DNA of 64,000 nt from Burkholderia puraquae (lineage in GTDB: Bacteria; Pseudomonadota; Gammaproteobacteria; Burkholderiales; Burkholderiaceae), in NCBI RefSeq assembly GCF_002099195.1, contig NZ_NBYX01000002.1, positions 372,001 to 436,000 of the forward strand, given 5' to 3'. A program made the position numbers and the translations under genes. Positions 9,597 to 38,222 of this stretch are shown one piece after another. Position 1 is the stretch's first letter; every line of letters starts with the position of its first letter. The notes beneath the pieces were generated by a model. The model saw nothing but the letters and a program-made list of their open reading frames with translations, had not been told where the DNA came from and ran no database searches.

Positions 9597-10697
9597 TCAG
9601 AACGCGTGCCGGATGCCGGCGCGGCCCACCGCCTGCTTCTGGTTGCCGGACGGATTGAAGCCCGCGATCTGCGCGACCGGCGCATCGCCCGCCGCCTTCT
9701 GGAACGCGCCCATCACATAGACGCTCGTGCGCTTGGACAGCGCGTATTCGACGCTCAGGTTGAACTGGTGATACTTCGGCTCCGCGTTCGTCGCGTGATC
9801 GCGTCCCGTCGTGTATGTATAGCCCGCGCCGATCGTCACGGCCGGCGACGGCGTGACCAGCGTCGACAGCTCGTAGTTCTGGAACGTCGCGTCGTGCCCC
9901 GCGCTGCCTTGCTGGAAGTTCGTGTTCGTGAAGTCGGCCAGCAGCTTGAGCCACTGCACGACCTGGTACGACGCGCCCACGCCGAACACCTTCTGCGCGC
10001 GTGCCGCATCGAGGTAGTTGCCGTAGATCGCGTTCGTGAAGCCCGGATAGTTCTGGTAGCCCTGTGTCGACACGCCCGGGTTGTTGATCCGCAGATAGCC
10101 GATGCCGAAGCCGACCGGGCCCGCTGCATAGCTTGCACCGACGCTGAACGTCGCGTTGTCCGAGAAGCGGCCGGGTTGCCCGCCGAATGCATAGAGGCCG
10201 CCGAACGTGACGCCGGCGATCGTCGGGCTGCGGTACTTCACCGCGTTCGAGATCGGGAAGCCGTTGTCGGTGTTGTCCATGTCGTTCGGGTGCGCGAAGT
10301 AATAGCCGCCGATGTTGCCGTTCAGCGTGAACGGCTCGACGTAGTCGACGATCGAATCCCACTGGCGGCCGAGCGTGAGCGTGCCGAGCTTCGTGTCATT
10401 CAGGCCGACGTACGCGTTGCGCGAGAACGCGAGGCCGCTGCCGAGCCGGCCCGAGTTGATGTCGAAGCCGCTTTCGAGCCGGAAGATCGCGCTCAGGCCG
10501 CCGCCGAGATCCTCGGTGCCGCGCACGCCCCAGCGGCTACCGGCCGTCACGCCCGACGCGAGCTGCACGAGGTGCTTGCCCTGCACGTTCGACACGTAGT
10601 CGACGCCGTCTTCGACGATGCCGTACAGCGTGACGCTGCTTTGCGCGTGGGCGGTGGCGGCCGCGGCGAGCGGCAGCGCGAACAGGAGTTTTTTCAT
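9597..10697 (-). CDS. Gram-negative trimeric porin (OmpC-like)
   Basis: This 366-residue porin has a clean signal peptide (MKKLLFALPLAAAATAHA, cleavage before QSSVTLYG), the WGVRGTEDLGGGLSAIFRLE strand-turn region with the constriction loop after it, and ends RHAF with the terminal Phe required for barrel assembly. It lies about 170 bases downstream of the MIO-less lyase on the same strand and could serve as the outer-membrane entry for the same substrate, though a GC-rich hairpin lies between them and no shared operator was found upstream. Confidence 0.93.
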   Translation of the reverse strand: MKKLLFALPLAAAATAHAQSSVTLYGIVEDGVDYVSNVQGKHLVQLASGVTAGSRWGVRGTEDLGGGLSAIFRLESGFDINSGRLGSGLAFSRNAYVGLNDTKLGTLTLGRQWDSIVDYVEPFTLNGNIGGYYFAHPNDMDNTDNGFPISNAVKYRSPTIAGVTFGGLYAFGGQPGRFSDNATFSVGASYAAGPVGFGIGYLRINNPGVSTQGYQNYPGFTNAIYGNYLDAARAQKVFGVGASYQVVQWLKLLADFTNTNFQQGSAGHDATFQNYELSTLVTPSPAVTIGAGYTYTTGRDHATNAEPKYHQFNLSVEYALSKRTSVYVMGAFQKAAGDAPVAQIAGFNPSGNQKQAVGRAGIRHAF

Positions 10698-10870: not shown

Positions 10871-12505
10871 TCAGTCGCGATACGCGCGCAGCAGCGTATC
10901 GGCGGCGCGGAAGTCGGGGGTGAGCGGGCGGTCGCGCTGGAGGAACGCGACCTTCGTGCGCAGCGCGCGGTACAGCGGCTGCGTGGCCGGCGCGAGCGTG
11001 AACGACGGCTGCTTGCGCTGGCGCAGGTCGATCGCCTGCGCGGCTTCGATCAGTTCGAGGCCGAGCAGGGTATAGCTCGCGTCGATCTGCTGCTGCACGC
11101 GCTGCACGACTTGAGGCGCGTTCGTCGCGACGTCCTCGATGCCGCCGGCAACCGGCAGGTAGTCGAGCGACACGGGCATCGCGAGCGATTTCACCGTCAT
11201 CGCGAGCGCGGTCGGCGGCTTTTCCATCGCGCCGAACGCGTGCACGGTTTCCTCGGTGCCGAGGAAGCGCGAGAGGCCGGTGAGGTGCGGGTCGTTCAGC
11301 TTGACGATGCGCTGCGCGGACGCGAGCGCATTGTGGCCGAGCGCGAGCCCGAGTTGCTCGAACGCAAGCACCCACGGCAGCGGCTCGAAGTTCGCGCTCG
11401 GCAGCACCGCGCCGCCGCCGTCGACGTAGCCGGCCGCATCCTGCACGCGGTTCGACTTCGGCGTGACACCCACCGCGACGCCCGGATTGTCGTCGCTCGA
11501 ATTGAGTTGCACCTGCAGCAGCGTGCGCGCTTCGTCGTAGGTGCGATCCTCTTCGCCGAGCAGATAGACGCCGGAACGGAAGCTGAGCGGATCCTGCAAC
11601 GGCCGGTCCGGATCGCGGTTCCACAGGCTGCTGCCCGCGAGCAGCGTGCGCAGCGCCGCGCCCGCGTGCCGCGTGGCCGGGAACGGCCGCAGCGCGAGCG
11701 TGTCCTCGCGGAACGGCGATACGTTGCCGTTCAGCCCCTGCAGGCTCAGCGCGAACACGACCTTCGACACCTGCGCGAGACGTGCCATGTCGGTGAGCGC
11801 CAGCGCACCCATGCCGGCCGAATACGCGTTGGAACTGAGGATGGCGAGCGCATCCTTGCCGTACGGGCGAATCGTCGCGATGCCGGCCGACTTCAGCGCA
11901 TCGGCGGCCGCGACCTTGCGGCCCTGGTAATAGACGTCGCCTTCGCCGAGCATCGCGAGGCCGACGTGGCTCAGGATCGTGATGTCGGCTTCGCCGATCG
12001 ACCCGTCCGCCGGCATCGCTGGCGTGACGCCGCGATTGAGGAACTGCGCGTACGCATCGACGATCGCGGGCTGCACGCCGGCGCCGCCGTCGAGCATCGC
12101 GTTCAGGCGTGCGGCCATCGCGGCGCGGGCCACGCGCACGCTCATGTCGGGGCCGACGCTGCCCGAGTGCGCGTGGATCAGCCCGATGTTGAAGCGCATC
12201 GACGCATCGATGACCTCCTGGCTCAGCTTGCCGTGCGCGTCGACCATCTCGCGGTCTTTATTGAGGCCGACGCCGACCGTCAGACCGTAGATCTGCTGGC
12301 CGGCCGCGGCCGCCTTCAGCAGCACGTCGTGCGCGGCGACGACCCGCTGGCGGGCGGCCGGCGCGATCGACACGGCTTCGCCGTCGGCGATGCGCGCGAT
12401 CGATTCGGGCGTGACGGACCGGCCGTCGAGCGTGACGTCCGCGAAGGCCGGGACGGCGGCGAAAAGCGCGAGCGCGATCGCGCTCCGCATGAGGAAGCGT
12501 TGCAT
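10871..12505 (-). CDS. Exported MIO-less aromatic ammonia-lyase homologue; candidate ergothionase
   Basis: This 544-residue protein has the histidine/phenylalanine ammonia-lyase fold. Matching landmarks are YGLTVGVG (Tyr73), SFRSGVYLLGEE and SSDDNPGV. The segment that should contain the self-cyclising Ala-Ser-Gly reads GSIGEADITILSH (168-180), one residue shorter, so no MIO cofactor can form. Ergothionase, which removes trimethylamine from ergothioneine, is a known MIO-free member of this fold. The neighbours (urocanase-like, DUF917, hydantoinase, carbamoylase) supply the later steps of ergothioneine breakdown. Residues 1-22 (MRSAIALALFAAVPAFA core) look like a signal peptide, so this protein would act in the periplasm. 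GGAG lies eight bases before the ATG. The substrate is an inference. Confidence 0.78.
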   Translation of the reverse strand: MQRFLMRSAIALALFAAVPAFADVTLDGRSVTPESIARIADGEAVSIAPAARQRVVAAHDVLLKAAAAGQQIYGLTVGVGLNKDREMVDAHGKLSQEVIDASMRFNIGLIHAHSGSVGPDMSVRVARAAMAARLNAMLDGGAGVQPAIVDAYAQFLNRGVTPAMPADGSIGEADITILSHVGLAMLGEGDVYYQGRKVAAADALKSAGIATIRPYGKDALAILSSNAYSAGMGALALTDMARLAQVSKVVFALSLQGLNGNVSPFREDTLALRPFPATRHAGAALRTLLAGSSLWNRDPDRPLQDPLSFRSGVYLLGEEDRTYDEARTLLQVQLNSSDDNPGVAVGVTPKSNRVQDAAGYVDGGGAVLPSANFEPLPWVLAFEQLGLALGHNALASAQRIVKLNDPHLTGLSRFLGTEETVHAFGAMEKPPTALAMTVKSLAMPVSLDYLPVAGGIEDVATNAPQVVQRVQQQIDASYTLLGLELIEAAQAIDLRQRKQPSFTLAPATQPLYRALRTKVAFLQRDRPLTPDFRAADTLLRAYRD

Positions 12506-12522
12506 GAAGCAGTTCTCCGGTT

Positions 12523-13845
12523 TCAGGCGTGACGTGACGTGGAAGACAGCGCGGCGATCGACGCGAGCGCGATGACGCTCGCGGCCATCACATACCAGGC
12601 GGGCGCGAACGGGTTGCCCGACCGTTGCGTAAGCCACGCGAGGATCGCGGGCGCGAAGCCGCCGAAGATCGTCGTGGCGATGTTGTAGGACAGCGACATG
12701 CCGGTCGCGCGCACCTTGGTCGGGAACAGCTCCGACAGCGCGGCGGGCGCGACGCCCGTGAAGATCGCGACCATCACGCAGAACGCGCTCTGTACGACGA
12801 TCAGCGCAGCGAGCGTGTGCACGTCGGCGAGCCAGTGCAGCAGCGGATATACCGACACGAGCATCAGCACGGCACCGGCCGTCAGCACCGTGCGCCGGCC
12901 GATGCGGTCCGACCAGCTCCCCGCGCACACGCAGGTGACGGCCATCAGGCAGTTGCCGACCAGCGACGCGATGAACGCATCGCGCCCGTCGAAGTGCAGC
13001 GCGCGCTGCACGTGGGTCGGCATGTAGATCACCAGCGCATACACGCACACGGCCCACAGCACCGAGAACCCGGTGCCGACCACGAGCGCACGCGGATAGT
13101 CGCGCACAACCTGCAGCAGCGGCGCCTTGCGTTCGGCCGGCGCATGCGCGGCACGCGCCATCTCCGCACGGAAATGCGGCGTTTCGTCGAGCGTCTTGCG
13201 CAGCCACAGGCCGACCGGCGCGATCGCGAGGCCGAGGATGAACGGAATCCGCCAGCCCCAGTCGCCGATCTGTTCGCGCGACAGCGTGAGCGTCACGGCG
13301 GTGGCGACCAGCGCGCCGAGGATGTTCGACGCGGCCATGCTGGCCTGCAGCCACGATGCGTAGCGGCCCTTGCGGTCCGCCGGCGCGTGCTCGATCAGGA
13401 ACGCCGCGGCGCCGCCCACTTCGCCGCCGGCCGAGAAGCCCTGCAGCAGGCGGCCGCACAGGATCAGCAGCGGCGCGCCGACGCCGATCGCGGTGTACGG
13501 CGGCGCGAACGCGATGATGCCGGTGCCGGCCGCCATCACGAGGATGGTCAGCGTCAGCGCGGCCTTGCGGCCTGCGCGATCGCCGTACACGCCGATCGCG
13601 AGCGCGCCGAGCGGCCGGGCGATGAAGCCGATCCCGAACGCCATGAATGCCTCGACCAGCTCGGTGCCCGTGTCGCCGCGATGGAAGAAGTTCTGCGCGA
13701 TATACACGGCAAAGAACGCGTAGACGGAAAAGTCGTACCACTCCAGCGCGTTGCCGATCGACGCCGCGGCGATCGCTCGCCCGGCACTCGAGGTAGGGGG
13801 CGACACGGCATCGGCCGTGTCGAGGGGAACCGCGGTTTGCTTCAC
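12523..13845 (-). CDS. MFS transporter, metabolite:H+ symporter (MHS/ProP-like)
   Basis: This is a 440-residue inner-membrane symporter with about 12 membrane helices. The NALEWYDFSVYAFFA first helix, GDRAGRKAALT loop and RLLQGFSAGGEVGGAA are hallmarks of the metabolite:proton symporter family, whose members carry betaines, dicarboxylates and aromatic acids. It lies between the lyase (18 bases downstream) and the urocanase-like gene (36 bases upstream), all on one strand. If the lyase acts in the periplasm, the likely cargo is thiourocanate or a related acid; if not, it may be ergothioneine itself. Confidence 0.9.
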   Translation of the reverse strand: MKQTAVPLDTADAVSPPTSSAGRAIAAASIGNALEWYDFSVYAFFAVYIAQNFFHRGDTGTELVEAFMAFGIGFIARPLGALAIGVYGDRAGRKAALTLTILVMAAGTGIIAFAPPYTAIGVGAPLLILCGRLLQGFSAGGEVGGAAAFLIEHAPADRKGRYASWLQASMAASNILGALVATAVTLTLSREQIGDWGWRIPFILGLAIAPVGLWLRKTLDETPHFRAEMARAAHAPAERKAPLLQVVRDYPRALVVGTGFSVLWAVCVYALVIYMPTHVQRALHFDGRDAFIASLVGNCLMAVTCVCAGSWSDRIGRRTVLTAGAVLMLVSVYPLLHWLADVHTLAALIVVQSAFCVMVAIFTGVAPAALSELFPTKVRATGMSLSYNIATTIFGGFAPAILAWLTQRSGNPFAPAWYVMAASVIALASIAALSSTSRHA

Positions 13846-13881
13846 TTCGATCTCCTGTCCTGTCGTCGTGCGAGCCGGCCG

Positions 13882-15534
13882 TTACAGCCGGATATGCGGA
13901 ATCTGCTTGCGTTGCGCTTCGTCGAGCGCTTCTTCGTAGCCGGCGTCCGCGTAGCGGATCACGCCGAGCGCGGTGTCGTTGGTCATCGACAGCGTCAGCC
14001 GCTCGTCCGCGGCTGCGCTACCGTCGGCGACGACGGTGACGCCCGCGCTCGTCATGTAGCCGCTGTAGCCGCCGCCGCCCGAATGGATCGCGACGAGATC
14101 GGCCATCGACGAGCAGCTCATCATCGCGTTCAGCAGCGGCCAGTCGGCCACCGCATCGGAGCCGTCGCGCAGGTTCTCGGTCATGATGTTCGGGTGCGCC
14201 ATCGCGCCGGCGTCGAGGTGGTCGCGCGTGAAGGCGACCGGCCCGGCCAGCACGCCGTCGCGCACCATCGCGTTGACCGCCAGCGCGAGCCGCGTGCGCT
14301 CGCCATGGCCGAGCCATGCGATGCGTGCCGGCAGCCCTTCGAACGGCACGCATTCGCGCGCTTTCTGGATCCAGTTCGTGACGATCCGGTTATCCGGGAA
14401 GTGTTCGAGCAGGTAGTCGTCGATGACGCGGATGTCGTTCGGGTCGTTCGACAGCGCAATCCAGCGGAACGGGCCGATCGCGCGGCAGAACAGCGGCCGC
14501 AGGAAGGCTTCGGTGAACACCGGAATCTCGAACGCGCGTGCGACGCCGCCGTCCTTCGCATGCGTGCGGATCAGGTTGCCGTTGTCGAACACGATCGCGC
14601 CGCGATCCTTGAAGCCGAGCATCGCTTCGACGTGCCGCACGATCGACGCGCGGCTCGCGTCCATCAGCTTCGTGCGGTCGCTGTCGCGCAGCGCGCGAAC
14701 GTCGTCCAGCGTGTAGCCCGACGGCACGTAGCCGTACACGAGATCGTGCGCGGCCGTCTGGTCGGTGACGATGTCCGGCACGACGCCGCGCGCCAGGATC
14801 GCCGGGAACACGTCGGCCGCGTTGCCGAGCAGGCCGACCGAGATCGGCTCGCGCCGGGCCTGCGCGTCGCGGATCAGTGCGAGTGCCTCGTCGAGATCGC
14901 GCGCCTGCCGCTCGAGAAAGCCGATCTGCAGCCGCTTGTCGATGCGCGTCTGGTCGATCTCGACGACGAGCGTCGCCGCGTTGGCCATCCGCCCTGCGAG
15001 CGGCTGCGCGCCGCCCATGCCGCCGAGGCCGGCCGTCAGGATGAAGCGCCCGCGCAGGTCGTTGTCGAAATGGCGCTCGGCGATCCGCGAGAAGATTTCG
15101 TAGGTGCCCTGGATCACGCCCTGCGAGCCGATGTACTGCCAGTCGCCGGCCGTGAGGCCGCCCCAGCAGATCAGGTTGCGCCGTTCCAGTTCGTAGAAGT
15201 GCTCGGCTTTCGCCCACTGGCCGATCAGGTTGCAGTTCGCCATCACGACGAGCGGCGCGCTCGCATGCGTGCGCAGCAGCGCGACGGGCTTGCCGGACTG
15301 CACGACGAGCGTCTCGTTCTCGTCCATCGTCTTCAGCGTGCGCACGATCGCGTCGTGCGACGGCCAGTCGCGCGCCGCGCGGCCGAGCGCCGCATAGACG
15401 ATCAACTGGTCGGGATCCTCGCCGACGGCGAGTACGTTCTCGAGCAGCCGCAGCAGCGCTTCCTGGCGCCAGCCCTTGCAGCGCAGCGTGGTGCCGGACG
15501 TGACTTCGAAGGTGCGGGTCATCTGGTTCGTCAT
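13882..15534 (-). CDS. Urocanate hydratase homologue; candidate thiourocanate hydratase
   Basis: This 550-residue protein matches urocanase along its length: KGWRQEALLRLL, VVYAALGRAARDW-type start, the NAD-binding loop GLGGMGGAQPLAG, and LFCRAIGPFRW. The loop that in HutU usually reads GYSQHAG is GYMTSAG here (492-498), and the preceding HHGGGVGM is HSGGGGYS, so the active-site surroundings differ from canonical urocanase. In the cluster context the expected substrate is thiourocanate (or its S-methyl form), giving a 2-thioxo-imidazolone propionate. It has no signal peptide and so acts in the cytoplasm. The DUF917 gene starts the operon 13 bases upstream. Confidence 0.88.
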   Translation of the reverse strand: MTNQMTRTFEVTSGTTLRCKGWRQEALLRLLENVLAVGEDPDQLIVYAALGRAARDWPSHDAIVRTLKTMDENETLVVQSGKPVALLRTHASAPLVVMANCNLIGQWAKAEHFYELERRNLICWGGLTAGDWQYIGSQGVIQGTYEIFSRIAERHFDNDLRGRFILTAGLGGMGGAQPLAGRMANAATLVVEIDQTRIDKRLQIGFLERQARDLDEALALIRDAQARREPISVGLLGNAADVFPAILARGVVPDIVTDQTAAHDLVYGYVPSGYTLDDVRALRDSDRTKLMDASRASIVRHVEAMLGFKDRGAIVFDNGNLIRTHAKDGGVARAFEIPVFTEAFLRPLFCRAIGPFRWIALSNDPNDIRVIDDYLLEHFPDNRIVTNWIQKARECVPFEGLPARIAWLGHGERTRLALAVNAMVRDGVLAGPVAFTRDHLDAGAMAHPNIMTENLRDGSDAVADWPLLNAMMSCSSMADLVAIHSGGGGYSGYMTSAGVTVVADGSAAADERLTLSMTNDTALGVIRYADAGYEEALDEAQRKQIPHIRL

Positions 15535-15546
15535 CGCGCCCCCCGT

Positions 15547-16638
15547 TCAGCGCGCGAGCGCATAGTCGGCGATCGAGATGCCGAGCGCGGCTTCGACCGG
15601 CGGATACACGGCAGGATCGAACACCGACGACGACAGCGGAATGTGCGCCTTCGCCACGCGCAGCACGTGGATCTCCATCCCCTCCTTCAATTGGCCCGCG
15701 CTGACGGGGCGGCCTTCGGCATCGAGCGTCGTGATCACGTCCGGGTAGGTCGCGATCCGCGCGCCGTGCGCGTCGTCCACCGCCATGTGTTCGTTCATCA
15801 CATGAATGACCGCGCGCTGCGCGCCGCTGCCGAGGTAGACGAGGCCGACGTCGAACGCTTCGCGCGTGTATTCGAGCGTGTTGCGCTCGACCTTGCCGCT
15901 CGCGATGATCTCGCCGTGCGTGGCTGCGCAGATCGCGTCGATCACCGCGCGGCCGCCGCGCCGCTCGGCGTCGATGATCGCTTCGCCGAGTGCGAGCGCA
16001 CGGCCGATGCCGCCGAGCGCCGCATGCTGGCGCACGTACGACGCGCGAATCGGGTTGCGGCAGCTCGCGATGAAGCCGCCCGCCATGTCGGCCGCCTTGC
16101 GCAGCACCGGCGATACTTTCGCGGTCGCGCCGCGCACGACCACTTCCATGTATGCGTGCTGTGCGCGGTTGCCGCCGGCCGCCGCCTGGATCATCGGCGT
16201 CGTGCTCGACGCGAGCCCGAGCGAGCCCATGTCGCCGGTCGGATGGGCGCGGATGTCGCCCACCGCGTCGACCACCTTGGTGCCGAGCAACGCGGACGGC
16301 AGCCACGCGTTCAGCGTGCTCGACATCCCGTTCTGCCCGATGATGAGCCCCGCGAGCGGCGCGCCGAGCGCGTCCTGCACGAGTTGCGCGGCCTTCACGT
16401 AGTCGGCGCCGAGCATTTGCCAGTCGGTGAGGCCGCCCGGCGCGCCGATCGCGGCGGCCGTGGCGATCCACGCGTCGTCCGGCAACTCGTCGATGGTCAC
16501 CAGTTCGGGGCGGCCGATCGTGACCGCGAGCGTGCCGAGTTCACGGCCGTGGTCGGCCCAGCCGCCGCCGCCGCATGCGAAAACCGAACCGCCCTTGACG
16601 GCGGCTTCGACGTCCTTCGAAGACAGAATGCGTCCCAT
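15547..16638 (-). CDS. DUF917-family protein; candidate thiohydantoin desulfurase
   Basis: This is a 363-residue cytoplasmic protein of the DUF917 family, recognised by ACGGGGWADHG, IGAPGGLTDWQM and GQNGMSSTLNAWLPSA near the front and the tail domain with PDVITTLD. DUF917 proteins have been tied to sulfur removal from S-methyl-thiohydantoins, and Burkholderia sp. HME13 is reported to have a desulfhydrase acting after thiourocanate hydratase. Here the gene heads the operon DUF917, urocanase-like, transporter, lyase, under a promoter region that carries a palindromic LysR-type box. The role is inferred from family and neighbours. Confidence 0.85.
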   Translation of the reverse strand: MGRILSSKDVEAAVKGGSVFACGGGGWADHGRELGTLAVTIGRPELVTIDELPDDAWIATAAAIGAPGGLTDWQMLGADYVKAAQLVQDALGAPLAGLIIGQNGMSSTLNAWLPSALLGTKVVDAVGDIRAHPTGDMGSLGLASSTTPMIQAAAGGNRAQHAYMEVVVRGATAKVSPVLRKAADMAGGFIASCRNPIRASYVRQHAALGGIGRALALGEAIIDAERRGGRAVIDAICAATHGEIIASGKVERNTLEYTREAFDVGLVYLGSGAQRAVIHVMNEHMAVDDAHGARIATYPDVITTLDAEGRPVSAGQLKEGMEIHVLRVAKAHIPLSSSVFDPAVYPPVEAALGISIADYALAR

Positions 16639-16763
16639 GTGTCGTTTGTCCTGAGAGAGGAAAAGGGCTGTACGCGCCGGCCGGAAAGCCTTGTGTGGCG
16701 GTACTGTCCAAACGATTCTAGGGACGCCGAATATTGAGCGTTATTGCTATTTTATGGAGACTT

Positions 16764-16780
16764 CATAACGCGATGTTAAG
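16764..16780 (+). promoter_or_regulatory. Candidate LysR operator at the DUF917 promoter
   Basis: The sequence CATAAC-GCGAT-GTTAAG is an interrupted palindrome 126 bases before the DUF917 ATG. The same half-sites with the same 5-base spacing recur at the divergent LysR/hydantoinase promoter. An overlapping inverted repeat TTATG-N7-CATAA (16752-16768) extends it to the left. This is the expected form of a T-N11-A LysR box. Confidence 0.55.
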
Positions 16781-16898
16781 CGTAGGGTAATCCCGGTGAC
16801 GCTTGAACGCCGGATGGCGAACGGGGTAATCCGCCGCTGTCGGCTGGACGGCGAAACGCAGGCTGGGCAATGGTTTCAGCCTGTTCGGGCAACGAAAT

Positions 16899-17789
16899 TC
16901 ACGCGTCGGCGGAGAGCGCGTGCAGCGTGTCGATGAACTCGTGCGCGAGGCGCGACAGCGGTGCAAGCACGGGGTGCAGCACGCTGACCGGCGCGGCAAT
17001 GGTCGGCACGATCGGCTTCACGACGATCTGCGGCCACACCGGGCCCGCGACCGTCAGCTCGTCGATCAGCGCGATGCCGGTGCCGGCCTGTGCGAGCGCG
17101 CAGGCGACATGCGCCTGCTGCACTTCGATCTTGACCTGCGGCACGAGCCCTTCGTCGCTGAACAGCCGCCGCACCAGCTGCCCGAGCGGGATGTCGCTGC
17201 CATAGCCGATCAGCGGCTGGTTCGCGAGATCGCGCACGGCCAGCGTCTTGCGGCGCGCGAACGGGTGCGATGCGGGCACGGCCGCGACCATCCGGTTCTC
17301 ATAGAGGCGCTGGCTTTCGACATTCGGGTGCGTGTCTTCCAGGAACGCGATGCCGAGTTCGACCTGCTGCGTGAGCACCGCCTGCAGCAGCACGTTCGGG
17401 ATCATCGTGTGCAGGATGATGCGCACGTCGGGAAAACGTTCGTAGAACGCGGCGATTGCGCGCGGCAGCAGCGATTGGCCGAGATTGGGGCTGCACGCGA
17501 TGCGCAGGTGGCCCATCCGGTTCTCGATCAGGTCTTCCGCGATTTCGTTGACGCGCTGCACGCCCTGGTACACCGCGTTCACTTCGACGAACAGACGCTG
17601 CGCTTCCGGCGTCGGGTAGAGCCGCCCCTTGATGCGCTCGAACAGCGCGAGGCCGAGCCGCTGCTCGGCATACGAAATGAGCCGCGAGACAGCCGGCTGC
17701 GATACGTGCAGCAGCTTCGCGGCGCCGCTGATCGAGCCGGTCAGCATGATGGCGCGAAACACCTCGATCTGGCGCAGGTTCAGACGCAC
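16899..17789 (-). CDS. LysR-family regulator of the lyase/hydantoinase cluster
   Basis: This 296-residue protein has the winged helix TGSISGAAKLLHVSQPAVSRLISYAEQ (about 17-43) and a two-lobed effector domain, close in style to OccR/NocR-type regulators. It starts with GTG; the GGAG ribosome site lies inside the CATAAC-N5-GTTAAG box at its own start, which suggests autorepression. It sits between the two arms of the cluster: DUF917 operon downstream on the same strand and hydantoinase-carbamoylase operon divergent. It therefore most likely senses the substrate or an intermediate of the pathway. Confidence 0.92.
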   Translation of the reverse strand: MRLNLRQIEVFRAIMLTGSISGAAKLLHVSQPAVSRLISYAEQRLGLALFERIKGRLYPTPEAQRLFVEVNAVYQGVQRVNEIAEDLIENRMGHLRIACSPNLGQSLLPRAIAAFYERFPDVRIILHTMIPNVLLQAVLTQQVELGIAFLEDTHPNVESQRLYENRMVAAVPASHPFARRKTLAVRDLANQPLIGYGSDIPLGQLVRRLFSDEGLVPQVKIEVQQAHVACALAQAGTGIALIDELTVAGPVWPQIVVKPIVPTIAAPVSVLHPVLAPLSRLAHEFIDTLHALSADA

Positions 17790-17792
17790 AGC

Positions 17793-17809
17793 CTTAACTC
17801 CATGTTATG
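17793..17809 (-). promoter_or_regulatory. Candidate LysR operator at the divergent promoter
   Basis: Read on the minus strand this is CATAAC-ATGGA-GTTAAG, the same half-sites and spacing as the box before DUF917. It ends three bases from the LysR GTG and overlaps its ribosome site, and is 80 bases from the hydantoinase ATG. Confidence 0.55.
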
Positions 17810-17888
17810 TGGGGGCGATAAATCGGCATGAGACATTCTGGCAGAGCGCTGCCTAAACTGCTCGTGATCAAAAAAGCAGGAGGCGCAG

Positions 17889-19274
17889 ATGAGCGAATTC
17901 GAACAGGTGGTGCGCGGCCGGTTGGTCGATGCGCGCGAGGTGGTCGACGACGGCTGGCTCGCGATCAGGAGCGGGCGGATCGCCGCACGTGGCACGGGCG
18001 CGCCGCCGGCGGCACGCGACACGATCGATGCGCGCGGGCAGTGGGTGCTGCCGGGCGTCGTCGACGGGCAGGTGCATGCGGCCAGCCAGGCGAACCAGGA
18101 GGGGCTCGGTCACGCGTCGCGTGCCGCCGCCGCCGGGGGCGTGACGGTGATGGTCGACATGCCGTACGACGATCCGGAGCCGGTTGCGTCGCGCGCGCAG
18201 CTCGACCGGAAGATCGCGGAAGCCGAACGCGATTGCCACGTCGACGTCGCGCTGTACGGCACGCTCAACGCGAAACACGGCCTCGAGGCGGCGGCCGGGC
18301 TGATCGACGGCGGCGTGTGCGCGTTCAAGTTCTCGACGTTCGAGGCGACGCCCGGCCGGTTCCCGCGCGTCGAAGAAGACGTGCTGTACGACGCATTCCG
18401 GCTGATCGCGCCGTCGGGCCTCGCATGCGGCGTGCACAACCAGATGCAGGACATGACGCGCAAGAACGTCGCGCGGATGATCGAGGCCGGCGACACGGGC
18501 TGGGACGCATTCCTGCGCGCGCACCCGCCGCTGATCGAGAACCTCGCGACCGCGCTGATCTACGAGATCGGCGCGGAAACGGGCGCCCGCGCGCACGCGG
18601 TGCACGTGTCGACGTCGCGTGGCTTCGCGCTGTGCAACATGTTCCGGCAGGCCGGCCACCGCGCGAGCATCGAGACCTGCGTGCAGTACCTGATGCTCGA
18701 CCACGAAACGCATACGAAGCGCTTCGGCGCGAAAACCAAGCACTATCCGCCGATCCGGCCGCGCGCCGAGCAGGAACGGCTGTGGACGCACATCGCGCGC
18801 GGCGAATGCACGTTCGTGTCGTCGGATCACGTGAGCTGGGGGCTCGAACGCAAGGGCGACCCGAACGTGTTTCGCAACGCGTCGGGCGGCCCGGGGCTCG
18901 AAACGCTGCTGCCGGCGTTCTGGACCGGCTGCGAGCAGCATGGCATCGCGCCGACGCGGGTGGCCGAGCTGCTGGCGACGAACCCCGCGCGGCATTTCCT
19001 GCTCGACGACCGCAAAGGGTCGCTCGATATCGGCGCCGATGCGGATTTCGTGATCCTCACGCCGGAGCGTCATGCGTTCGATCCGTCGCGCAGCCTGTCG
19101 GCCGTGCAATGGAGCGCGTTCGAAGGGATGGAATTCACGGTGCGGATCGCCGCCACGTACTGCCGCGGCGCGCTCGTGTACGACGGCGAGCGCATCGTCA
19201 ACCCGGCGGGCTCGGGCCGCTTCCTGAAGCCGCACGGCAACCGGTCGATCGCCACGCAACTGGAGCATGCATGA
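17889..19274 (+). CDS. Cyclic amidohydrolase (hydantoinase/allantoinase-like)
   Basis: This 461-residue protein is of the amidohydrolase superfamily. It has the small N-terminal sandwich, the VLPGVVDGQVH metal segment (59-63), a candidate carboxylated Lys147 in CAFKFST, HAVHVST, and SSDHVSWG with the catalytic Asp. The first metal-binding His of the usual D-x-H-x-H is Gln61, which is unusual. In the proposed pathway it opens hydantoin-5-propionate to N-carbamoyl-glutamate. AGGAGG precedes the ATG. It overlaps the next gene by four bases (ATGA). Confidence 0.88.
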   Translation: MSEFEQVVRGRLVDAREVVDDGWLAIRSGRIAARGTGAPPAARDTIDARGQWVLPGVVDGQVHAASQANQEGLGHASRAAAAGGVTVMVDMPYDDPEPVASRAQLDRKIAEAERDCHVDVALYGTLNAKHGLEAAAGLIDGGVCAFKFSTFEATPGRFPRVEEDVLYDAFRLIAPSGLACGVHNQMQDMTRKNVARMIEAGDTGWDAFLRAHPPLIENLATALIYEIGAETGARAHAVHVSTSRGFALCNMFRQAGHRASIETCVQYLMLDHETHTKRFGAKTKHYPPIRPRAEQERLWTHIARGECTFVSSDHVSWGLERKGDPNVFRNASGGPGLETLLPAFWTGCEQHGIAPTRVAELLATNPARHFLLDDRKGSLDIGADADFVILTPERHAFDPSRSLSAVQWSAFEGMEFTVRIAATYCRGALVYDGERIVNPAGSGRFLKPHGNRSIATQLEHA

Positions 19275-20542
19275 ATCCGACAGTCTTCCCGCCGCTGAAC
19301 GCCGAACGCCTGAACGCGCGCGTCGAGCGACTGGCGCGCTTTACGCGGCCCGACGTCCCGTGGACGCGCCGCGCGTTCTCGCCGCTGTTCACGGAGGCGC
19401 GCGCATGGCTCGCCGCGCAGTTTGCCGAAGCCGGCCTTGCCGTGTCGATGGACGCGGGCGGCAACCTGATCGGCCGCCGCGAAGGCAGCGGCCGTTGCAC
19501 GAAACCGCTCGTCACGGGCTCGCATTGCGACACGGTGGTCGGCGGCGGCCGCTTCGACGGGATCATTGGCGTGCTCGCGGGCATCGAGGTCGCGCATACG
19601 CTGAACGAGCAAGGGGTCGTGCTCGACCATCCGTTCGAGGTGATCGACTTCCTGTCCGAAGAACCCAGCGACTACGGCATCTCGTGCGTCGGCAGCCGTG
19701 CGCTCTCGGGCGTGCTCGACGCCGGCATGCTGCGCGCAACGAACGCCGAAGGCGAAACGCTCGCCGATGCATTGCGACGCATCGGCGGCAACCCGGACGC
19801 GCTGCACGAACCGCTGCGTGCGCCGGGCAGCACGGCCGCGTTCGTCGAGCTGCATATCGAACAGGGGCCCGTGCTCGAGACGCGCGGCTTGCCGATCGGC
19901 GTCGTGACCAACATCGTCGGCATCCGGCGCGTGCTGATCACCGTGACCGGGCAGCCCGACCATGCGGGCACGACGCCGATGGACATCCGTCGCGACGCGC
20001 TCGTCGGCGCCGCGCACCTGATCGAGGCCGCGCATGCGCGCGCGTCGGCGCTGTCGGGCAATCCGCACTACGTCGTCGCGACGATCGGGCGGATCGCGAC
20101 GACGCCGAACGTGCCGAACGCGGTGCCGGGGCATGTCGAGCTGATGCTCGAAGTGCGCAGCGACAGCGACGCGGTGCTCGACGCTTTCCCCGAGGCGCTG
20201 CTGGCCGGTGCGGCCGCGCGGCTCGACGGGTTGCGGTTGAGCGCGCGCGCCGAGCACGTGAGCCGCGCGCGGCCGACCGATTGCCAGCCGCTCGTGATGG
20301 ACGCGGTCGAACAGGCGGCCACGCAGCTCGGCTATCCGAGCATGCGGCTGCCGAGCGGCGCGGGGCACGACGCCGTATACGTCGCGCCGACTGGGCCGAT
20401 CGGGATGATCTTCATTCCGTGCCTGGGCGGCCGCAGCCATTGCCCGGAAGAATGGATCGAGCCGCAGCAACTGCTCGATGGCACGCGCGTGCTGTATCAA
20501 ACGCTCGTGGCGCTCGATCGTTCACTCGCGGGGGCGGCGTAA
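19271..20542 (+). CDS. M20-family hydantoinase/carbamoylase (N-carbamoyl amino acid hydrolase)
   Basis: This 423-residue metal-dependent amidase belongs to the carbamoylase/allantoate amidohydrolase group. Visible metal and catalytic motifs are GSHCDTVVGGGRFDG, LSEEPSDYG (Glu-Glu), FVELHIEQGPVLE, DHAGTTPMD in the lid domain and SGAGHDAVY near the end. It is translationally coupled to the hydantoinase gene. The expected reaction is hydrolysis of N-carbamoyl-L-glutamate to glutamate, CO2 and ammonia, the last step of the proposed route. Beta-ureidopropionate or allantoate are alternatives for the family. Confidence 0.92.
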   Translation: MNPTVFPPLNAERLNARVERLARFTRPDVPWTRRAFSPLFTEARAWLAAQFAEAGLAVSMDAGGNLIGRREGSGRCTKPLVTGSHCDTVVGGGRFDGIIGVLAGIEVAHTLNEQGVVLDHPFEVIDFLSEEPSDYGISCVGSRALSGVLDAGMLRATNAEGETLADALRRIGGNPDALHEPLRAPGSTAAFVELHIEQGPVLETRGLPIGVVTNIVGIRRVLITVTGQPDHAGTTPMDIRRDALVGAAHLIEAAHARASALSGNPHYVVATIGRIATTPNVPNAVPGHVELMLEVRSDSDAVLDAFPEALLAGAAARLDGLRLSARAEHVSRARPTDCQPLVMDAVEQAATQLGYPSMRLPSGAGHDAVYVAPTGPIGMIFIPCLGGRSHCPEEWIEPQQLLDGTRVLYQTLVALDRSLAGAA

Positions 20543-20569: not shown

Positions 20570-21589
20570 TTACGCCGGCCGCTGCCCTTCCCGCGGCCCG
20601 TGCCCCGTCCACCGCTTGAACGCGCGCCGGAAGTTGTGTGCATCGCTGAACCCGACTTCGTGCGCGACGTCCTCGATCGACAGCCGCGGGTTGCTCAGCA
20701 GCGTGAACGCGCGCTTGCGGCGGATCGTGTCGATCACCGTTTGATACGACACGCCCTGGTCGGCAAGCCGCCGCCGCAGGGTGCGCTCGCTCATGCACAG
20801 TTGCGCGGCGATCGCCGCGAGCGACGGCGCATGCCGCAGGTCGCGCCGCATGATCCGTTCGATCGATTCGAGAAATTCGGTGCCTTCGGGTTCGGGCGGC
20901 AGCGCATCCTGCAGGAATTCGAGCGCCTGGCGATGCGCGAGCGGATCGTGGGTCGCGATCGGGCGGTTGCCGAGCGCGGCGTCGCATGAAAACAGGTTCT
21001 GCTCCTGTTCGAACCGCACCGGGCACGGGAACACGCGCGCGTACTGCTCCGCATAGGCCGGCGGCGGATAGCTGAGATCGACGCCCTTCGGCTGGAACGC
21101 GGGGCCGACGAGCGAGCGCCCGATCTTCATGAAGCTGCCGAACGCTTCCTCGACGAGGAACGCCTCGATGTCGGCTTCGAGGAATACGTTGGTCGCGCGG
21201 ATCGACAGCGTGCGCGCATCCGAGACCACGTCGAAGCGCATCAGCGGCCCCGTGTGGCGCTGCAGCTCGATGCCGGCCACGATCGCGTCCTTCAGCGTCG
21301 GGCTCGTCAGCATCGCATAGCCGACCAGCCCGATCGACGCGATCGTCTCGCTCGTGCCGAGTTCGAGGCCGAGCGCCCGCCCGGGCGCCATGTCGAGCGC
21401 GCGGCGGATCATCGTGCTCGCCTGGCGCAATGAAATCCGGCACGACGGATTCGACAGGTCAGCGACGTCGAAGCCGAGCCCGAGGCACAGCCGCGTGGGA
21501 TCGATGCCCAGTTCCTTGCTTGTCTCCGCGAGGCACCGCAACAGATGGACCGGCAGATTCGCCGTCGTATAACGGTCGGGTTCGTCCAT
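20570..21589 (-). CDS. AraC-family transcriptional regulator
   Basis: This 339-residue protein has an Arabinose_bd-type N-terminal domain (about 1-210) like that of OruR/ArgR-type and VirS-type regulators, and a C-terminal pair of helix-turn-helix motifs with LCMSERTLRRRLADQG and IEDVAHEVGFSDAHNFRRAFKRWTG. CGGAG lies five bases before the chosen ATG. It is convergent with the carbamoylase gene and has a porin gene upstream on the same strand; that porin is a plausible target. Confidence 0.9.
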   Translation of the reverse strand: MDEPDRYTTANLPVHLLRCLAETSKELGIDPTRLCLGLGFDVADLSNPSCRISLRQASTMIRRALDMAPGRALGLELGTSETIASIGLVGYAMLTSPTLKDAIVAGIELQRHTGPLMRFDVVSDARTLSIRATNVFLEADIEAFLVEEAFGSFMKIGRSLVGPAFQPKGVDLSYPPPAYAEQYARVFPCPVRFEQEQNLFSCDAALGNRPIATHDPLAHRQALEFLQDALPPEPEGTEFLESIERIMRRDLRHAPSLAAIAAQLCMSERTLRRRLADQGVSYQTVIDTIRRKRAFTLLSNPRLSIEDVAHEVGFSDAHNFRRAFKRWTGHGPREGQRPA

Positions 21590-21689
21590 GGATGCTCCGT
21601 ATTTTTTTCCATGGATTGTACTCGTCCCGCCCGGCCGGAGACCCGCTGCCGCCCCGGCCGCGATCGCCCACATCCTGCGCGGCCCCGCT

Positions 21690-22886
21690 TCAGAAGTAGT
21701 GGCGCAGGCCGACCGTCGCGCCGAGCTGCGTGGTGCTCGTGCTCGGCGACTGCCCGTTGATGCCGACCAGTTGCGTGCCGACCAGGCCGCCGCGATAGAT
21801 CGCATAGTCGACTTCCGCGTAGAGCATGCTGCGCTTCGACAGGCTGTAGCCGGCGATCACCTGGAACTGGCGCGCGCGGCCGTCGAAATCCGGCGTGTAG
21901 CCGGACTGCGTGGTCCACCATGCGTTGACGGCGGCCGTGAACGCCGGCGTGAACCGGTAGGTCAGCCCCGCGAGCGCCATCTTGCGGCGCCGGAACCCGC
22001 CGGGCACCGACGGATCGACCACCTGCGCGGGCGAGATGATGCCGAGCGCGGCGAGATCGGTCGGGCTGAACGGGCCGTTCGCGAACGACGTGAAGTCGTT
22101 GTCGCGCGCGTTCTCGATATAGCCGGCGTTGACGGTCGCGTTGCCGAGCGTCACCGAGCCGCCGCCGCCGTACACGTCGAACTTGCCGTGCGTGACGTCG
22201 TCCCAGCTGCGCATGAACGATGCGCCGACCGTGAACGGCCCCTTGTCCGGCGCATACGCGACCGCCGCGCCGGCCTGGCCGCCGAGCACGCCGCCGCCCG
22301 CATGGCCGCCGGGCGAATACTGTGCGAGCAGGTACAGGCTGCCGAGCTGCGCGCCGTACTGGATCATGTTGCTGGTGCGCGAGCCGGCGAGCATCGTCTG
22401 CTCCGGCTTGAACAGGTTGAAGTACGGATCCTGCGGGCCGGCCCACAGGTTCGAGCCGTAGGTCAGCGACACCATCTCGAACGGCACGTTGTACTGGCGG
22501 CCGAGCGTGAGCTGGCCGAGCGACGTCGACGTCAGCCCCACGTATGCGACCTCGAAGAAGTTCGGCGAGCCGGCCGGCACGATGCTGCCGCTGTTGGGGC
22601 CGAAGTGGCTCTCGACGTTGAACTGCGCGGACAGCCCGCCGCCGAGATCCTCCTGCCCCTTGAGGCCCCAGTAGCTTTCCGTCAGGCCGCCGCCGTCGGC
22701 CATCGAGATCTTGCGGCCCGTCGACACCGGCGAACCGTCGGCGCCGTAGGACACGCCGTGCGTTTCGTAGCGGATGCCCGCGTCGATCACGCCGTACAGC
22801 GTCACGTTGCTTTGCGCGTGTGCGCCGGTACCGGCCAGGGCCATCATCGCGCAGCACGCGGCGCGAACGCTATCGTGACGATTCAT
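21690..22886 (-). CDS. Gram-negative trimeric porin (OmpC-like)
   Basis: This is the third porin of the window (398 residues). The signal peptide ends GTGAHA before QSNVTLYGVIDAGIRY; SYWGLKGQEDLGGGLSAQFNVE precedes the constriction loop, and the chain ends GLRHYF with the terminal Phe. It is longer than the other two by about 32 residues, mainly in extracellular loops rich in glycine. It stands between an AraC regulator and the MFS/oxidase group and appears to have its own promoter. Confidence 0.93.
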   Translation of the reverse strand: MNRHDSVRAACCAMMALAGTGAHAQSNVTLYGVIDAGIRYETHGVSYGADGSPVSTGRKISMADGGGLTESYWGLKGQEDLGGGLSAQFNVESHFGPNSGSIVPAGSPNFFEVAYVGLTSTSLGQLTLGRQYNVPFEMVSLTYGSNLWAGPQDPYFNLFKPEQTMLAGSRTSNMIQYGAQLGSLYLLAQYSPGGHAGGGVLGGQAGAAVAYAPDKGPFTVGASFMRSWDDVTHGKFDVYGGGGSVTLGNATVNAGYIENARDNDFTSFANGPFSPTDLAALGIISPAQVVDPSVPGGFRRRKMALAGLTYRFTPAFTAAVNAWWTTQSGYTPDFDGRARQFQVIAGYSLSKRSMLYAEVDYAIYRGGLVGTQLVGINGQSPSTSTTQLGATVGLRHYF

Positions 22887-31296: not shown

Positions 31297-33681
31297 TCAG
31301 TCGCCGAACAACTGCCCCTGCCCGGAGATCACGCGTTCGAAATCGTCGCGCAGGAACGGCAGGATCGCGTCGGCCACGGGCTGCAACTGGCGGCTCAGGT
31401 AGAACGCGTAGTCGATCGGCGAGCGCATCGTTTCGAGCGGCTCGGGGCCGGCCGTCGTCATCACGTAGCTGATCCAGCCGCCGCGCTGATACTGCAGCGG
31501 CCGGCCCTGCGCGTGGTTGAACTCGTCGGCGATCCGCGCCGCGCGCACGTGCGGCGGCACGTTGCGCTCGTATTCGCGCAGCGGCCGGCGCACGCGCTTG
31601 CGGTAGACGAGCTGGTCGTCGAATTCGCCGGCCAGCGTGCGCCGCACGGTGTCGCGGATGAAATCCTGGTACGGCTCGCGGCCGAACACGCGCCGGTACA
31701 ACTCGCGCTGGAATTGCTGCGCGAGCGGCGTCCAGTCGGTGCGCACCGTTTCGAGCCCCTTGAAGACGAGATCCTCGCCGCCGTCGGCCGCTGCCGCGAG
31801 GCCCGCGTAGCGCTTCTTGCTGCCTTCCTCCGCGCCGCGCACGGTCGGCATCAGGAAGCGGCGGTAGTGCCGCTCGTACTGCAGCTCCAGCGCGCTCTCG
31901 AGCCCGAAGTGGTCGCGCAGGTGCGCCTGCCACCAGCGGTTCACGTGTTCGACGAGCGCGCGGCCCTTGGCGCCGGCTTCGTCGTCGTCGTGCGCGCGAC
32001 CGAGCCACACGAACGTCGAATCGGTATCGCCGTAGATCACTTCGTAGCCCTGCGCTTCGATCAGCTCGCGCGTGCGGTGCATGATCTCGTGCCCGCGCAT
32101 CGTGATCGACGACGCGAGGCGCGGGTCGAAGAAACGGCAGCCCGTCGAGCCGAGCACGCCGTAGAACGAATTCATGATGATCTTCAGCGCCTGCGACAGC
32201 GGCGCGTTGCGCTGCCGCTTCGCATCGTCGCGGCCCTCCCACACGCGGCGCACGACATCGGGCAGGCAGTGCGCGGTACGCGAGAAGCGCGCGCCGAGAA
32301 AGCCGGGCACCGATGCATCGTCGCCGGGATTCGCGAGCCCTTCGATCAGCCCCACCGGATCGATCAGGAACGTGCGGATGATCGACGGATAGAGGCTCTT
32401 GTAGTCGAACACGAGCACCGAGTCGTAGAGCCCGGGGCGCGAATCCATCACGAAGCCGCCGGGGCTGTTTTGTCCCGTCACGTCGCCGAGGTTCGGCGCG
32501 ACATAGCCGAGCCGGTGCATGCGCGGCAGGTACAGGTGCGTGAAGGCTGCCACCGACCCGCCGGTGCGATCGGCCGCGAGGCCTGTCACGCTCGCGCGTT
32601 CGAGCGCGAAGGACAGCAGGTCGGCCTTGTCGAAGATGCGCGTGACGAGCTCGCAGTCCTTCAGGTTGTAGCGCGCGAGCGCCGGCTTGTCGTGATCGAA
32701 GCGGCGCTGGATCTCGTCCATCCGCTGGTACGGGTTGTCGATCGACTTGCCTTCGCCGAGCAGCGCCTGCGACACGTATTCGAGGCTGAACGACGGGAAT
32801 GTCCACGTCGCGGATTTCAGCATGTCGATGCCGTCGAGAATCAGCCGGCCGGCCGCGCCCGCGAAGAAGTGGTCGGGCTGCTGGCCGTGCGCGCGCCAGT
32901 CGAGCACGCTGCCGCCGCGCCCGAGCTTCAGCGGCACGCCGAACTGCTCCGCGTGCGCATGCAGGATGCGCAGGTCGAACTGCACGAGGTTCCAGCCGAT
33001 CACGGCATCGGGATCGTGTTCGTCGAACCACGCGTTGAGCCGCGCGAGCATCGCGGGCCGGCTGTCGCAGTAGTCGAGGCGGAAGTCGCTGACGCCTGCT
33101 TCATCGCTGTCGTCCCCGTTCGGCGGGCCGAGCATGTAGACCTGCCGTTGCCCGCAGCCTTCGAGCGCGATCGAGTACAGCTCGCCATGGACGCTGGTTT
33201 CGATGTCGAGCGACACGCAGCGCAGCGCCGGGCGATAGCCGGTCGCGGTTTTCAGCTCGGCGCCGGTCAGCGTGCCGTCGCGGCCGGGCTGGCCGCGAAA
33301 CTGCACGCAGGCCGTGATGAAGCGCTCCATCGCGTAGCGGTCGGGCGGCTGCACGTCGGCTTCGTAGACGTCGACGCCGGCCGCCGCGAGGCGCTTCTGG
33401 AGCCCGGACAGGTGGCGATAGCGCTTGCAATAGAGGCCGACGACCGGGCGCTGCCGGAAATCGCGCAGCGCGAGCGGGCGCAGTTCGGCCTCGTGCTCGC
33501 CGGCCAGTGCGTGTTCGGCAAGCGCCCGCTGTTCGGCCGGAATGAACGCGACGGCTTCCTGCGGGCGCAACCGCACGCGGCGCGGACCGTGTTCGGTTGC
33601 CAGCCAGAACTCGATCTCGATGCCGGATGCGGTGTCCCGCCAGTGGCGGGTGAGGATGAAACCCTGCTCGAACGCCGTCAA
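31297..33681 (-). CDS. polB: DNA polymerase II (family B)
   Basis: This 794-residue protein is the damage-tolerant, proofreading polymerase II. The exonuclease motif Exo I is SLDIETS (about 165-171), and NPDAVIGWNLVQFDL is Exo II. Polymerase motif A is DYKSLYPSII, motif B includes IMNSFYGVLG, and motif C is YGDTDS with both catalytic aspartates. Length is close to that of E. coli PolB (783). All residues needed for both activities appear present. It stands alone here without an adjacent SOS gene. Confidence 0.96.
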   Translation of the reverse strand: MTAFEQGFILTRHWRDTASGIEIEFWLATEHGPRRVRLRPQEAVAFIPAEQRALAEHALAGEHEAELRPLALRDFRQRPVVGLYCKRYRHLSGLQKRLAAAGVDVYEADVQPPDRYAMERFITACVQFRGQPGRDGTLTGAELKTATGYRPALRCVSLDIETSVHGELYSIALEGCGQRQVYMLGPPNGDDSDEAGVSDFRLDYCDSRPAMLARLNAWFDEHDPDAVIGWNLVQFDLRILHAHAEQFGVPLKLGRGGSVLDWRAHGQQPDHFFAGAAGRLILDGIDMLKSATWTFPSFSLEYVSQALLGEGKSIDNPYQRMDEIQRRFDHDKPALARYNLKDCELVTRIFDKADLLSFALERASVTGLAADRTGGSVAAFTHLYLPRMHRLGYVAPNLGDVTGQNSPGGFVMDSRPGLYDSVLVFDYKSLYPSIIRTFLIDPVGLIEGLANPGDDASVPGFLGARFSRTAHCLPDVVRRVWEGRDDAKRQRNAPLSQALKIIMNSFYGVLGSTGCRFFDPRLASSITMRGHEIMHRTRELIEAQGYEVIYGDTDSTFVWLGRAHDDDEAGAKGRALVEHVNRWWQAHLRDHFGLESALELQYERHYRRFLMPTVRGAEEGSKKRYAGLAAAADGGEDLVFKGLETVRTDWTPLAQQFQRELYRRVFGREPYQDFIRDTVRRTLAGEFDDQLVYRKRVRRPLREYERNVPPHVRAARIADEFNHAQGRPLQYQRGGWISYVMTTAGPEPLETMRSPIDYAFYLSRQLQPVADAILPFLRDDFERVISGQGQLFGD

Positions 33682-33824: not shown

Positions 33825-34076
33825 CTAATGAAAATCACGATGGATCGTGTCGCACGTGGCGCCGCGCATACTGTTGTCGCGGCCTGTCCATGTGGAGGCG
33901 GGAGCACGATATTCGCGGCTCCGAAACTGAAGATACTGCCGGCAGCCACCGAAGCCGACGAATTCGATCACGGCCGGGTGCGGCTTCATGGCGCGAGGTG
34001 CGTCATTGTCGAGTGTCACGACGCTGCCGGGGTAGAGGTGCGAATGGGTTGTGCGCAGCAGTACGGTGGTGTGCAT
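33825..34076 (-). CDS. Hypothetical protein, 83 aa
   Basis: I do not recognise this. The chosen ATG has GGAG eight bases upstream, and the first 50 residues (MHTTVLLRTTHSHLYPGSVV onward) look protein-like with moderate hydrophobicity; the tail is rich in Arg and polar residues. It lies just upstream of polB on the same strand. It may be a short real gene or a chance frame. Confidence 0.4.
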   Translation of the reverse strand: MHTTVLLRTTHSHLYPGSVVTLDNDAPRAMKPHPAVIEFVGFGGCRQYLQFRSREYRAPASTWTGRDNSMRGATCDTIHRDFH

Positions 34077-34644
34077 CGAAGGCGCTCCGAGCGTTGTAGT
34101 GCGACGGTGGCGTGTCATTGCTGACGGCATTCACGAGAACGAGCGGCAAATTCAGGTTTTCAATTATTTGAATTACGCCCGATTGACTTCACAGAATCAT
34201 CATTCGTAGAATCGCCGATCAATAACAACATTACTCTGAGAGAGGCGCCATGAATGCGCACCGCGTGGTCGAAGTCATTGCGGAAGGGCCGGCTCGGCAG
34301 GAGCCGCTTCTCAAGTTCAATACCCGGCTTGGCAGTCATGCTCGGATTCCCCGCCGGAGGGCCGGGCAGTCTCGCATCGGTCGCGACGACGTGCCAACAC
34401 ATCGAGCAGGCTGTGTGAGCGCGCATCGCGTATCTCGACCTGACGCGGTCGGCCTCGTTTCCGATCGCCGCATGTGAGCGCCCCGTTCTGCAGGCGCCAG
34501 GCAACTCGCTCGACATGAGCGAAGGCAATCGACCGCAAAAACTACACGCATCCGCTGACCCGATTGAATTCGGTTGGCTGTCCCGCTTGCCTGGAAGGCT
34601 GGCGCCGCACGCATTGCTGACGAACTCATTAACCCGGACTCCCC
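34077..34644. other. Intergenic stretch with AT-rich patch
   Basis: The part around 34150-34250 is clearly lower in GC than the rest of the window. A 75-codon frame at 34250-34477 (plus strand) has GAGAGAG upstream and a plausible first 25 residues (MNAHRVVEVIAEGPARQEPL), but then becomes Arg-rich and unconvincing. I see no other gene. Confidence 0.3.
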
Positions 34645-35547: not shown

Positions 35548-35665
35548 CACATGCCTTCGTCATGAAAGCCACAAGCGGATACGGCGTGATCCGCATGCAC
35601 GACAATACGACCCGTGCCGGCCGCGAACCGGCAAGCCTGAATCGACATGACGTAAAGAACGAATC

Positions 35666-36043: not shown

Positions 36044-36057
36044 CCGTCGGTGCGTAT

Positions 36058-37722: not shown

Positions 37723-37827
37723 TGTCGCCGCCGGCGTGGCCATGGTCGACGAGCGCTGCTCCGGTCTGGTCGACGATCAATGGGGGCCGGACGACGGCCG
37801 CGTGGTCGGCCCTTCGGTTGAAAGCGC

Positions 37828-38194: not shown

Positions 38195-38222
38195 TCGACC
38201 TGATTCGTTCGCCTCGTTCACG

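Follow-up and report, generated by a model that had tools for sequence, protein, structure and literature searches.

A LysR-linked ergothioneine utilisation cluster of Burkholderia puraquae with a predicted first step outside the cytoplasm

Ergothioneine is a dietary (mushroom) antioxidant and a possible source of trimethylamine. In this study, we analysed a 64,000-nucleotide stretch of the Burkholderia puraquae genome (assembly GCF_002099195.1, contig NZ_NBYX01000002.1, positions 372,001 to 436,000; the window), in which seven genes at 10871-20542 encode the known route from ergothioneine to glutamate in full, the activity of the lyase on ergothioneine being predicted. The cluster is probably a LysR-controlled ergothioneine utilisation regulon that carries the breakdown to glutamate and takes its first step outside the cytoplasm. 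Ergothioneine would pass the outer membrane, perhaps via the adjacent porin, and a secreted ergothionase free of the 4-methylideneimidazole-5-one (MIO) cofactor would remove trimethylamine in the periplasm and leave thiourocanate, which an MHS proton symporter would move over the inner membrane. Four cytoplasmic steps would follow, in which thiourocanate hydratase forms thiohydantoin propionate, the DUF917 enzyme takes off sulfide, ErtD opens the hydantoin and ErtE removes the carbamoyl group to give L-glutamate, CO2 and ammonia; LysR would bind T-N11-A sites before both operons. The enzyme families, the signal peptide motif, the LysR box and the linkage pattern are read from the sequences themselves, and from these we infer the location of the lyase, the cargo of the MHS protein, binding by LysR, the inducer and a role for the porin. 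A lyase in the periplasm, if that is its place, would release both products, trimethylamine and thiourocanate, within reach of neighbours. The assumed need of degraders to import ergothioneine first would then not hold for this group, and searches for degraders via betaine transporters would miss it.

Five-step bacterial ergothioneine catabolism was reportedly rebuilt in vitro by Beliaeva, Leisinger and Seebeck in 2021, in a study said to have dealt with the enzymes and not with compartment or regulon. Its five enzyme types recur in the window in unchanged order, with a hydratase nearest to Protein Data Bank (PDB) entry 7ned, reportedly the thiourocanate hydratase of that study; the window differs in that its lyase bears a signal peptide and is partnered by an MHS symporter. 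An ergothionase of Burkholderia sp. HME13 (by Muramatsu et al. in 2013) and its downstream enzymes, from the same genus as the window, have reportedly been published as well. In Burkholderia, according to one paper (PMC13405746), ergothionase activity appears when ergothioneine is the only nitrogen source but is absent in LB; this paper gives BAM63550 as the accession of the HME13 ergothionase. An earlier note on this DNA held that single steps were known but not this gene set as one regulon. The pathway is in fact known, with curated NCBI models for four of its enzymes, and the cluster is a further member; this study adds the definition of a LysR box with its probable regulon, and a well-supported but predicted split of the pathway between periplasm and cytoplasm. 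Within open-access full text, no paper was found that joins ergothioneine with a signal peptide or with the periplasm; the main pathway papers lie outside that search, and absence from print is not established.

The gene cluster and its enzymes

The host genome comprises 8.1 Mb in 82 contigs. As the earlier note had described, all seven genes are present and open, in two divergent operons around one LysR gene: lyase, MHS transporter, hydratase, DUF917 desulfurase and LysR on the minus strand, ErtD and ErtE on the plus strand. The reading frames of the last two overlap by ATGA, the ErtE start at 19271 lying over the ErtD stop. Enzyme identities rest on NCBIfam curated equivalog models with their own cut-offs, on Pfam domains and on sequence matches to the PDB.

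10871..12505, minus: ergothionase-like trimethylamine lyase, 544 aa (PF00221 400.8 bits; EAD in place of the MIO tripeptide; Sec-like signal peptide)
12523..13845, minus: MHS-family metabolite:H+ symporter, putative thiourocanate importer (all models under cut-off; linkage pattern)
13882..15534, minus: thiourocanate hydratase, urocanase-like (NF058530, thiourocanate hydratase, 1053.9 bits, cut-off 930; best PDB match 7ned)
15547..16638, minus: thiohydantoin desulfurase, DUF917 / S-Me-THD-like (NF058529, thiohydantoin desulfurase, 605.6 bits, cut-off 440; PF06032 and PF20906)
16899..17789, minus: LysR-type regulator (PF03466 157.5 bits, PF00126 67.7 bits)
17889..19274, plus: ErtD, hydantoin-5-propionate amidohydrolase, a hydantoinase (NF058538, 693.7 bits, cut-off 600)
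19271..20542, plus: ErtE, N-carbamyl-L-glutamate amidohydrolase, an M20 family carbamoylase (NF058540, 649.6 bits, cut-off 520)

The window enzymes thus pass all four NCBIfam ergothioneine models, and the hydratase matches 7ned at 818.6 bits, the next entry at 614. The lyase, for which the NCBIfam scan returned no ergothionase model, finds its best PDB match in ergothionase 6s7j (269.6 bits; next 168.8). This enzyme of Treponema denticola (6s7j/6s7q), the nearest structural relative by sequence, reads GSIGEGD where the window reads GSIGEAD, and its aligned chain starts at residue 5, without a leader. Around the MIO place the window lyase has GSIG-EAD-ITILSH, against GSVG-ASG-DLAPLAH in the histidine ammonia-lyase (HAL) paralog of the same genome (L001; L numbers denote the loci compared); the cluster lyases lack the MIO tripeptide and the HAL paralogs examined carry ASG. 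It is because four curated models are passed, and because the lyase is nearest to 6s7j with EAD for ASG, that we read the route as complete. The MIO-less lyase, the DUF917 desulfurase and the ergothioneine-to-glutamate route proposed in the earlier note are all borne out by these results.

Its alternative substrate, S-methyl-ergothioneine, fares badly. That route does have its own hydratase and DUF917 families, sisters of those found here (NF058531 and NF058532), but the window proteins stay below both cut-offs (766.7 against 880 and 276.4 against 450) while the ergothioneine models pass, and it is very improbable that this is the real substrate. Just as improbable is a cluster of histidine-type ammonia lyase and urocanase for ordinary histidine degradation or a related imidazole. 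The PF00221 and urocanase domains would suit it, as would a hutU score of 709.8 over the cut-off of 375; the hydratase nevertheless scores higher on the thiourocanate model, the lyase reaches 258.2 bits on hutH, under the cut-off of 539.15, and lacks the MIO tripeptide, a separate ASG lyase (L001) lies next to a urocanase-like gene elsewhere in the genome, and histidine degradation has no use for a desulfurase.

The same genome also holds a second MIO-less lyase paralog (L165 8496-9989; C29, the gene of L002), with GSVGY and a MIO place three residues shorter. Its neighbours are an ABC transporter of amino-acid type and a GntR regulator, and Acinetobacter (L158, L161) and Janthinobacterium (L156) have proteins similar to it.

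The order of the genes is shared by loci of Burkholderia, Paraburkholderia, Trinickia, Caballeronia, Pseudomonas gingeri and Serratia. The distribution is patchy: with the own genome counted, the desulfurase exceeds its cut-off in 14/65 genomes of the genus and 6/398 of a phylum sample, and a lyase match at E <= 1e-50 is found in 3/369 genomes of the class and 6/399 of the order.

The LysR box and the probable regulon

The window contains two copies of a 13-bp dyad of the T-N11-A type, TAAC-N5-GTTA, one in each promoter, where shuffled sequences lead one to expect 0.03.

16719..16780, minus: predicted 62-bp LysR site of the desulfurase-hydratase-MHS-lyase operon (dyad 16766-16778; profile score 52.1 as a training-set member)
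17793..17854, plus: predicted 62-bp LysR site of the ErtD-ErtE operon (dyad 17795-17807; profile score 73.8 as a training-set member)

Among clusters with a desulfurase, ErtD and LysR at 55% identity or more, the dyad stands in both promoters of 47/47, the window and duplicate records being counted; the 94 sites amount to 60 distinct sequences, several clusters being one genome fetched twice. Some 20 bases past the dyad, on the side of the regulated gene, stands another conserved block (GCATAAGACATT-like), which is weak at the Burkholderia desulfurase promoter. The 62-base profile also finds sites that had no part in its training: before the transcription unit of an out-of-cluster lyase in Janthinobacterium 344 (53.1), before a metallo-beta-lactamase-like gene that precedes the out-of-cluster lyase of Bordetella trematum (54.9), before the MHS gene of Pandoraea L080 (51.3) and, in a beta-proteobacterial metagenome-assembled genome (MAG; L088), about 760 bases before a BCCT-lyase pair, with a hydratase-like fragment between (57.8). 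The own genome holds 12 dyads, against 44 for the reversed control pattern; of these dyads, only the two in the window score above zero with the 62-bp profile, the other ten reaching at most -8.0, and no further regulon members were found there in this way.

Because this box is common to both promoters, the claim of the earlier note that the genes form one catabolic unit is strengthened, and both operons can be read as one LysR regulon with predicted LysR sites. The recurring gene order and the LysR box, with four enzymes above curated equivalog cut-offs, rule out a chance neighbourhood. The box is, moreover, a means to find unlinked parts of the regulon, and did so here for two lyases.

Predicted export of the lyase and the probable cargo of the transporter

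The lyase has a well-placed start codon at 12505, with GGAGA 8 bases upstream, and its N-terminus continues after the predicted leader with DVTLDG.

12440..12505, minus: predicted Sec signal peptide, lyase residues 1-22, MQRFLMRSAIALALFAAVPAFA, cleavage between AFA and D (own hydropathy rule and controls)

The leader has a positive region, a hydrophobic core and a small-x-small cleavage site according to a hydropathy rule of our own, which was applied alike to all proteins. By this rule, 0/384 homologs of five other non-transporter cluster proteins (hydratase 84, desulfurase 85, LysR 49, ErtD 91, ErtE 75; duplicates among them) pass at the nearest start, and 2/384 if any Met within reach is taken as the start; the window porin passes, as expected of an exported protein. 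Differing yet similarly hydrophobic leaders are borne by the lyases of Trinickia, Caballeronia, Serratia, Pseudomonas gingeri, Achromobacter, Comamonas and Polaromonas, and a leader of signal type is kept in lyases down to about 40% identity despite the differing letters. In Rhizobiales, Thioclava and L088, 4-9 residues precede the catalytic domain of the lyase; the exception is Endobacterium L139, with a longer leader that is not hydrophobic. These observations point to a periplasmic lyase. The earlier note mentions neither the signal peptide nor the conserved porin beyond the lyase; with the signal peptide, the probable cargo of the MHS protein changes.

Linkage was counted over 80 named loci, with signal status assigned by hand from the N-termini and MHS defined as 45% identity or more. 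Intact signal-bearing lyases are accompanied by MHS in 24/24 loci, and signal-less lyases by such an MHS in 0/32; among the latter, an OpuAC betaine-binding ABC system is present in 5 and a BCCT betaine transporter in 1 (Pfam of representatives). The remaining loci are the ambiguous one of Reinekea (with OpuAC), that of Raoultella (a split lyase with leader, and MHS) and 22 whose fetched stretch contains no MIO-less lyase, in some cases owing to a contig end. L088 combines the same LysR, boxes and late enzymes with a signal-less lyase beside the BCCT transporter. MHS searches gave no match in the genomes of L088 and Reinekea L103, and best matches of 29-35% identity in those of L105, L106, L119, L131 and L142. 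From this pairing we infer that the MHS protein imports thiourocanate.

Some lyases and neighbours depart from the common layout. Comamonas testosteroni L087 has two signal-bearing lyases (14251-16071 and 18669-20366; 44% and 66% identity to that of the window) near one cluster, and the lyase of Raoultella L093 (14189-15852) lies in two pieces in different frames, by sequencing error or as a decayed gene. L102, a contig filed under an actinobacterial MAG and perhaps misbinned, contains an ert cluster of proteobacterial type that includes MHS and a signal-bearing lyase. A metallo-beta-lactamase-fold protein adjoins MHS and lyase in L074, L075, L076, L078, L079, L082, L086 and L087 (Polaromonas, Achromobacter, Comamonas), and a gene of this fold (L169 6401-7720) precedes the unlinked lyase of Bordetella trematum; the Pfam domain was seen for L074, L079 and L169.

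Of the 22 loci without a lyase, 10 hold MHS, 10 hold UbiD and 4 hold both. A whole-genome lyase search over 14 genomes took in those of seven of the ten MHS-bearing loci, all but L084, L085 and L094. Janthinobacterium 344 and Bordetella trematum carry a signal-bearing lyase elsewhere in the genome; two Pandoraea, Herbaspirillum, Janthinobacterium S3T4 and Acinetobacter keep MHS with lyase matches of at most 34% identity, most of which carry ASG. On the simplest reading, MHS in such clusters would import thiourocanate that is either produced in the periplasm or acquired from others.

UbiD-type decarboxylase genes stand in ert clusters that have no MIO-less lyase in the stretch (L080, L081, L085, L089, L100, L104, L108, L122, L125, L137), with a UbiX-like flavoprotein too in L089 and a MIO-bearing lyase and TRAP transporter in L100; these clusters possibly serve another entry compound.

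The whole five-enzyme pathway might instead be cytoplasmic, with MHS importing ergothioneine and the hydrophobic lyase N-terminus having no export role. The betaine transporter ProP belongs to the MHS family (the window protein scores 284.7 on the ProP model, under its cut-off of 544), ergothioneine is a betaine, and the T. denticola chain starts almost at the catalytic domain. This arrangement is nonetheless unlikely, given signal-type leaders that persist while their letters change, signal-bearing lyases that pair with MHS and never with betaine importers (Reinekea being ambiguous), and MHS genes retained where the genome has no close ergothionase.

Several points weigh against a periplasmic lyase paired with a thiourocanate importer. 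The signal peptide is a prediction by our own rule, and the lyase reaches only 269.6 bits to the T. denticola ergothionase, the signal-less lyase of L088 being far closer at 490.7 bits. The MHS protein scores 398.4 on TIGR00883 (cut-off 443.45) and 357.8 on the TcuC model (cut-off 445); as it is under the cut-offs of both TcuC and ProP, comparison of the two is weak evidence. None of the three transporter types appears in 26/32 signal-less loci, mostly of Rhizobiaceae. A lyase tree was built by a quick search with SH-aLRT as its sole support measure; it flags L119, L103 and L165 as long branches and omits L093 (split), L203 (with an N run), L204 (whose match is broken by a stop), L211 (MIO-bearing) and near-copies. 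In it the signal-bearing lyases fall into a single clade (97), to which the signal-less lyase of L088 is sister (95). Reinekea L103, which has the betaine ABC transporter, is nested inside this clade, and its N-terminus passes a lax rule without a convincing cleavage site. The pairing of signal and MHS is therefore mainly one evolutionary change with one doubtful reversal, and the locus counts exaggerate its weight. Moreover, one lyase match of Janthinobacterium S3T4 and two of Acinetobacter are MIO-less proteins of the other type (GSVGY), and three Herbaspirillum matches are fragments with an unreadable motif; these three genomes may hold a different ergothionase.

The porin that lies 3' of the lyase is a possible outer-membrane entry for ergothioneine.

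9597..10697, minus: general porin (PF13609 169.7 bits)

A porin with 89-99% identity adjoins the lyase in 13/13 loci L044-L056 and in 8/8 loci L063-L070, several of these loci being one genome fetched twice.

Signal-bearing lyases beside redox proteins, and flanking features

Six loci (L205-L210) from three small Burkholderiales genomes (G954, G989, G1128) of one family contain signal-bearing lyases, and no ert gene was found within the 11-20 kb fetched around them. In L205, L207, L208 and L209 the order is a flavoprotein with an RR-containing leader, a cytochrome with four CxxCH motifs and the lyase; in L206 and L210 a divergent protein with FMN_bind and FAD_binding_2 adjoins the lyase, a domain set that resembles urocanate reductase. 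These redox neighbours bear export signals. The lyases are MIO-less where read, that of L209 having AND for ASG at about 30% identity to the window lyase. Heme is joined to c-type cytochromes outside the cytoplasm; therefore, at least in the four loci, a neighbour of the exported lyase works there. This redox neighbourhood supports the periplasmic placement of the lyase, and the loci, possibly ergothioneine/thiourocanate respiration modules, suggest respiration on thiourocanate made by it.

We lean, with some reserve, towards an exported ergothionase clade in soil- and plant-associated beta- and gammaproteobacteria, which would cut ergothioneine in the periplasm and free trimethylamine outside the cytoplasm, with MHS importing only thiourocanate, besides a set of respiration-linked lyases. 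If true, three arrangements would exist: a cytoplasmic lyase with betaine importers, a periplasmic lyase with an acid importer, and a periplasmic lyase with a periplasmic reductase.

Elsewhere in the window, no tie to the pathway was established for an AraC gene and a second porin (20570-22808). A DNA polymerase II (family B, by Pfam) is encoded at 31297-33681 on the minus strand, and the GC content falls to 0.61-0.62 at 34001-40000, against about 0.67 around it, a possible foreign stretch.

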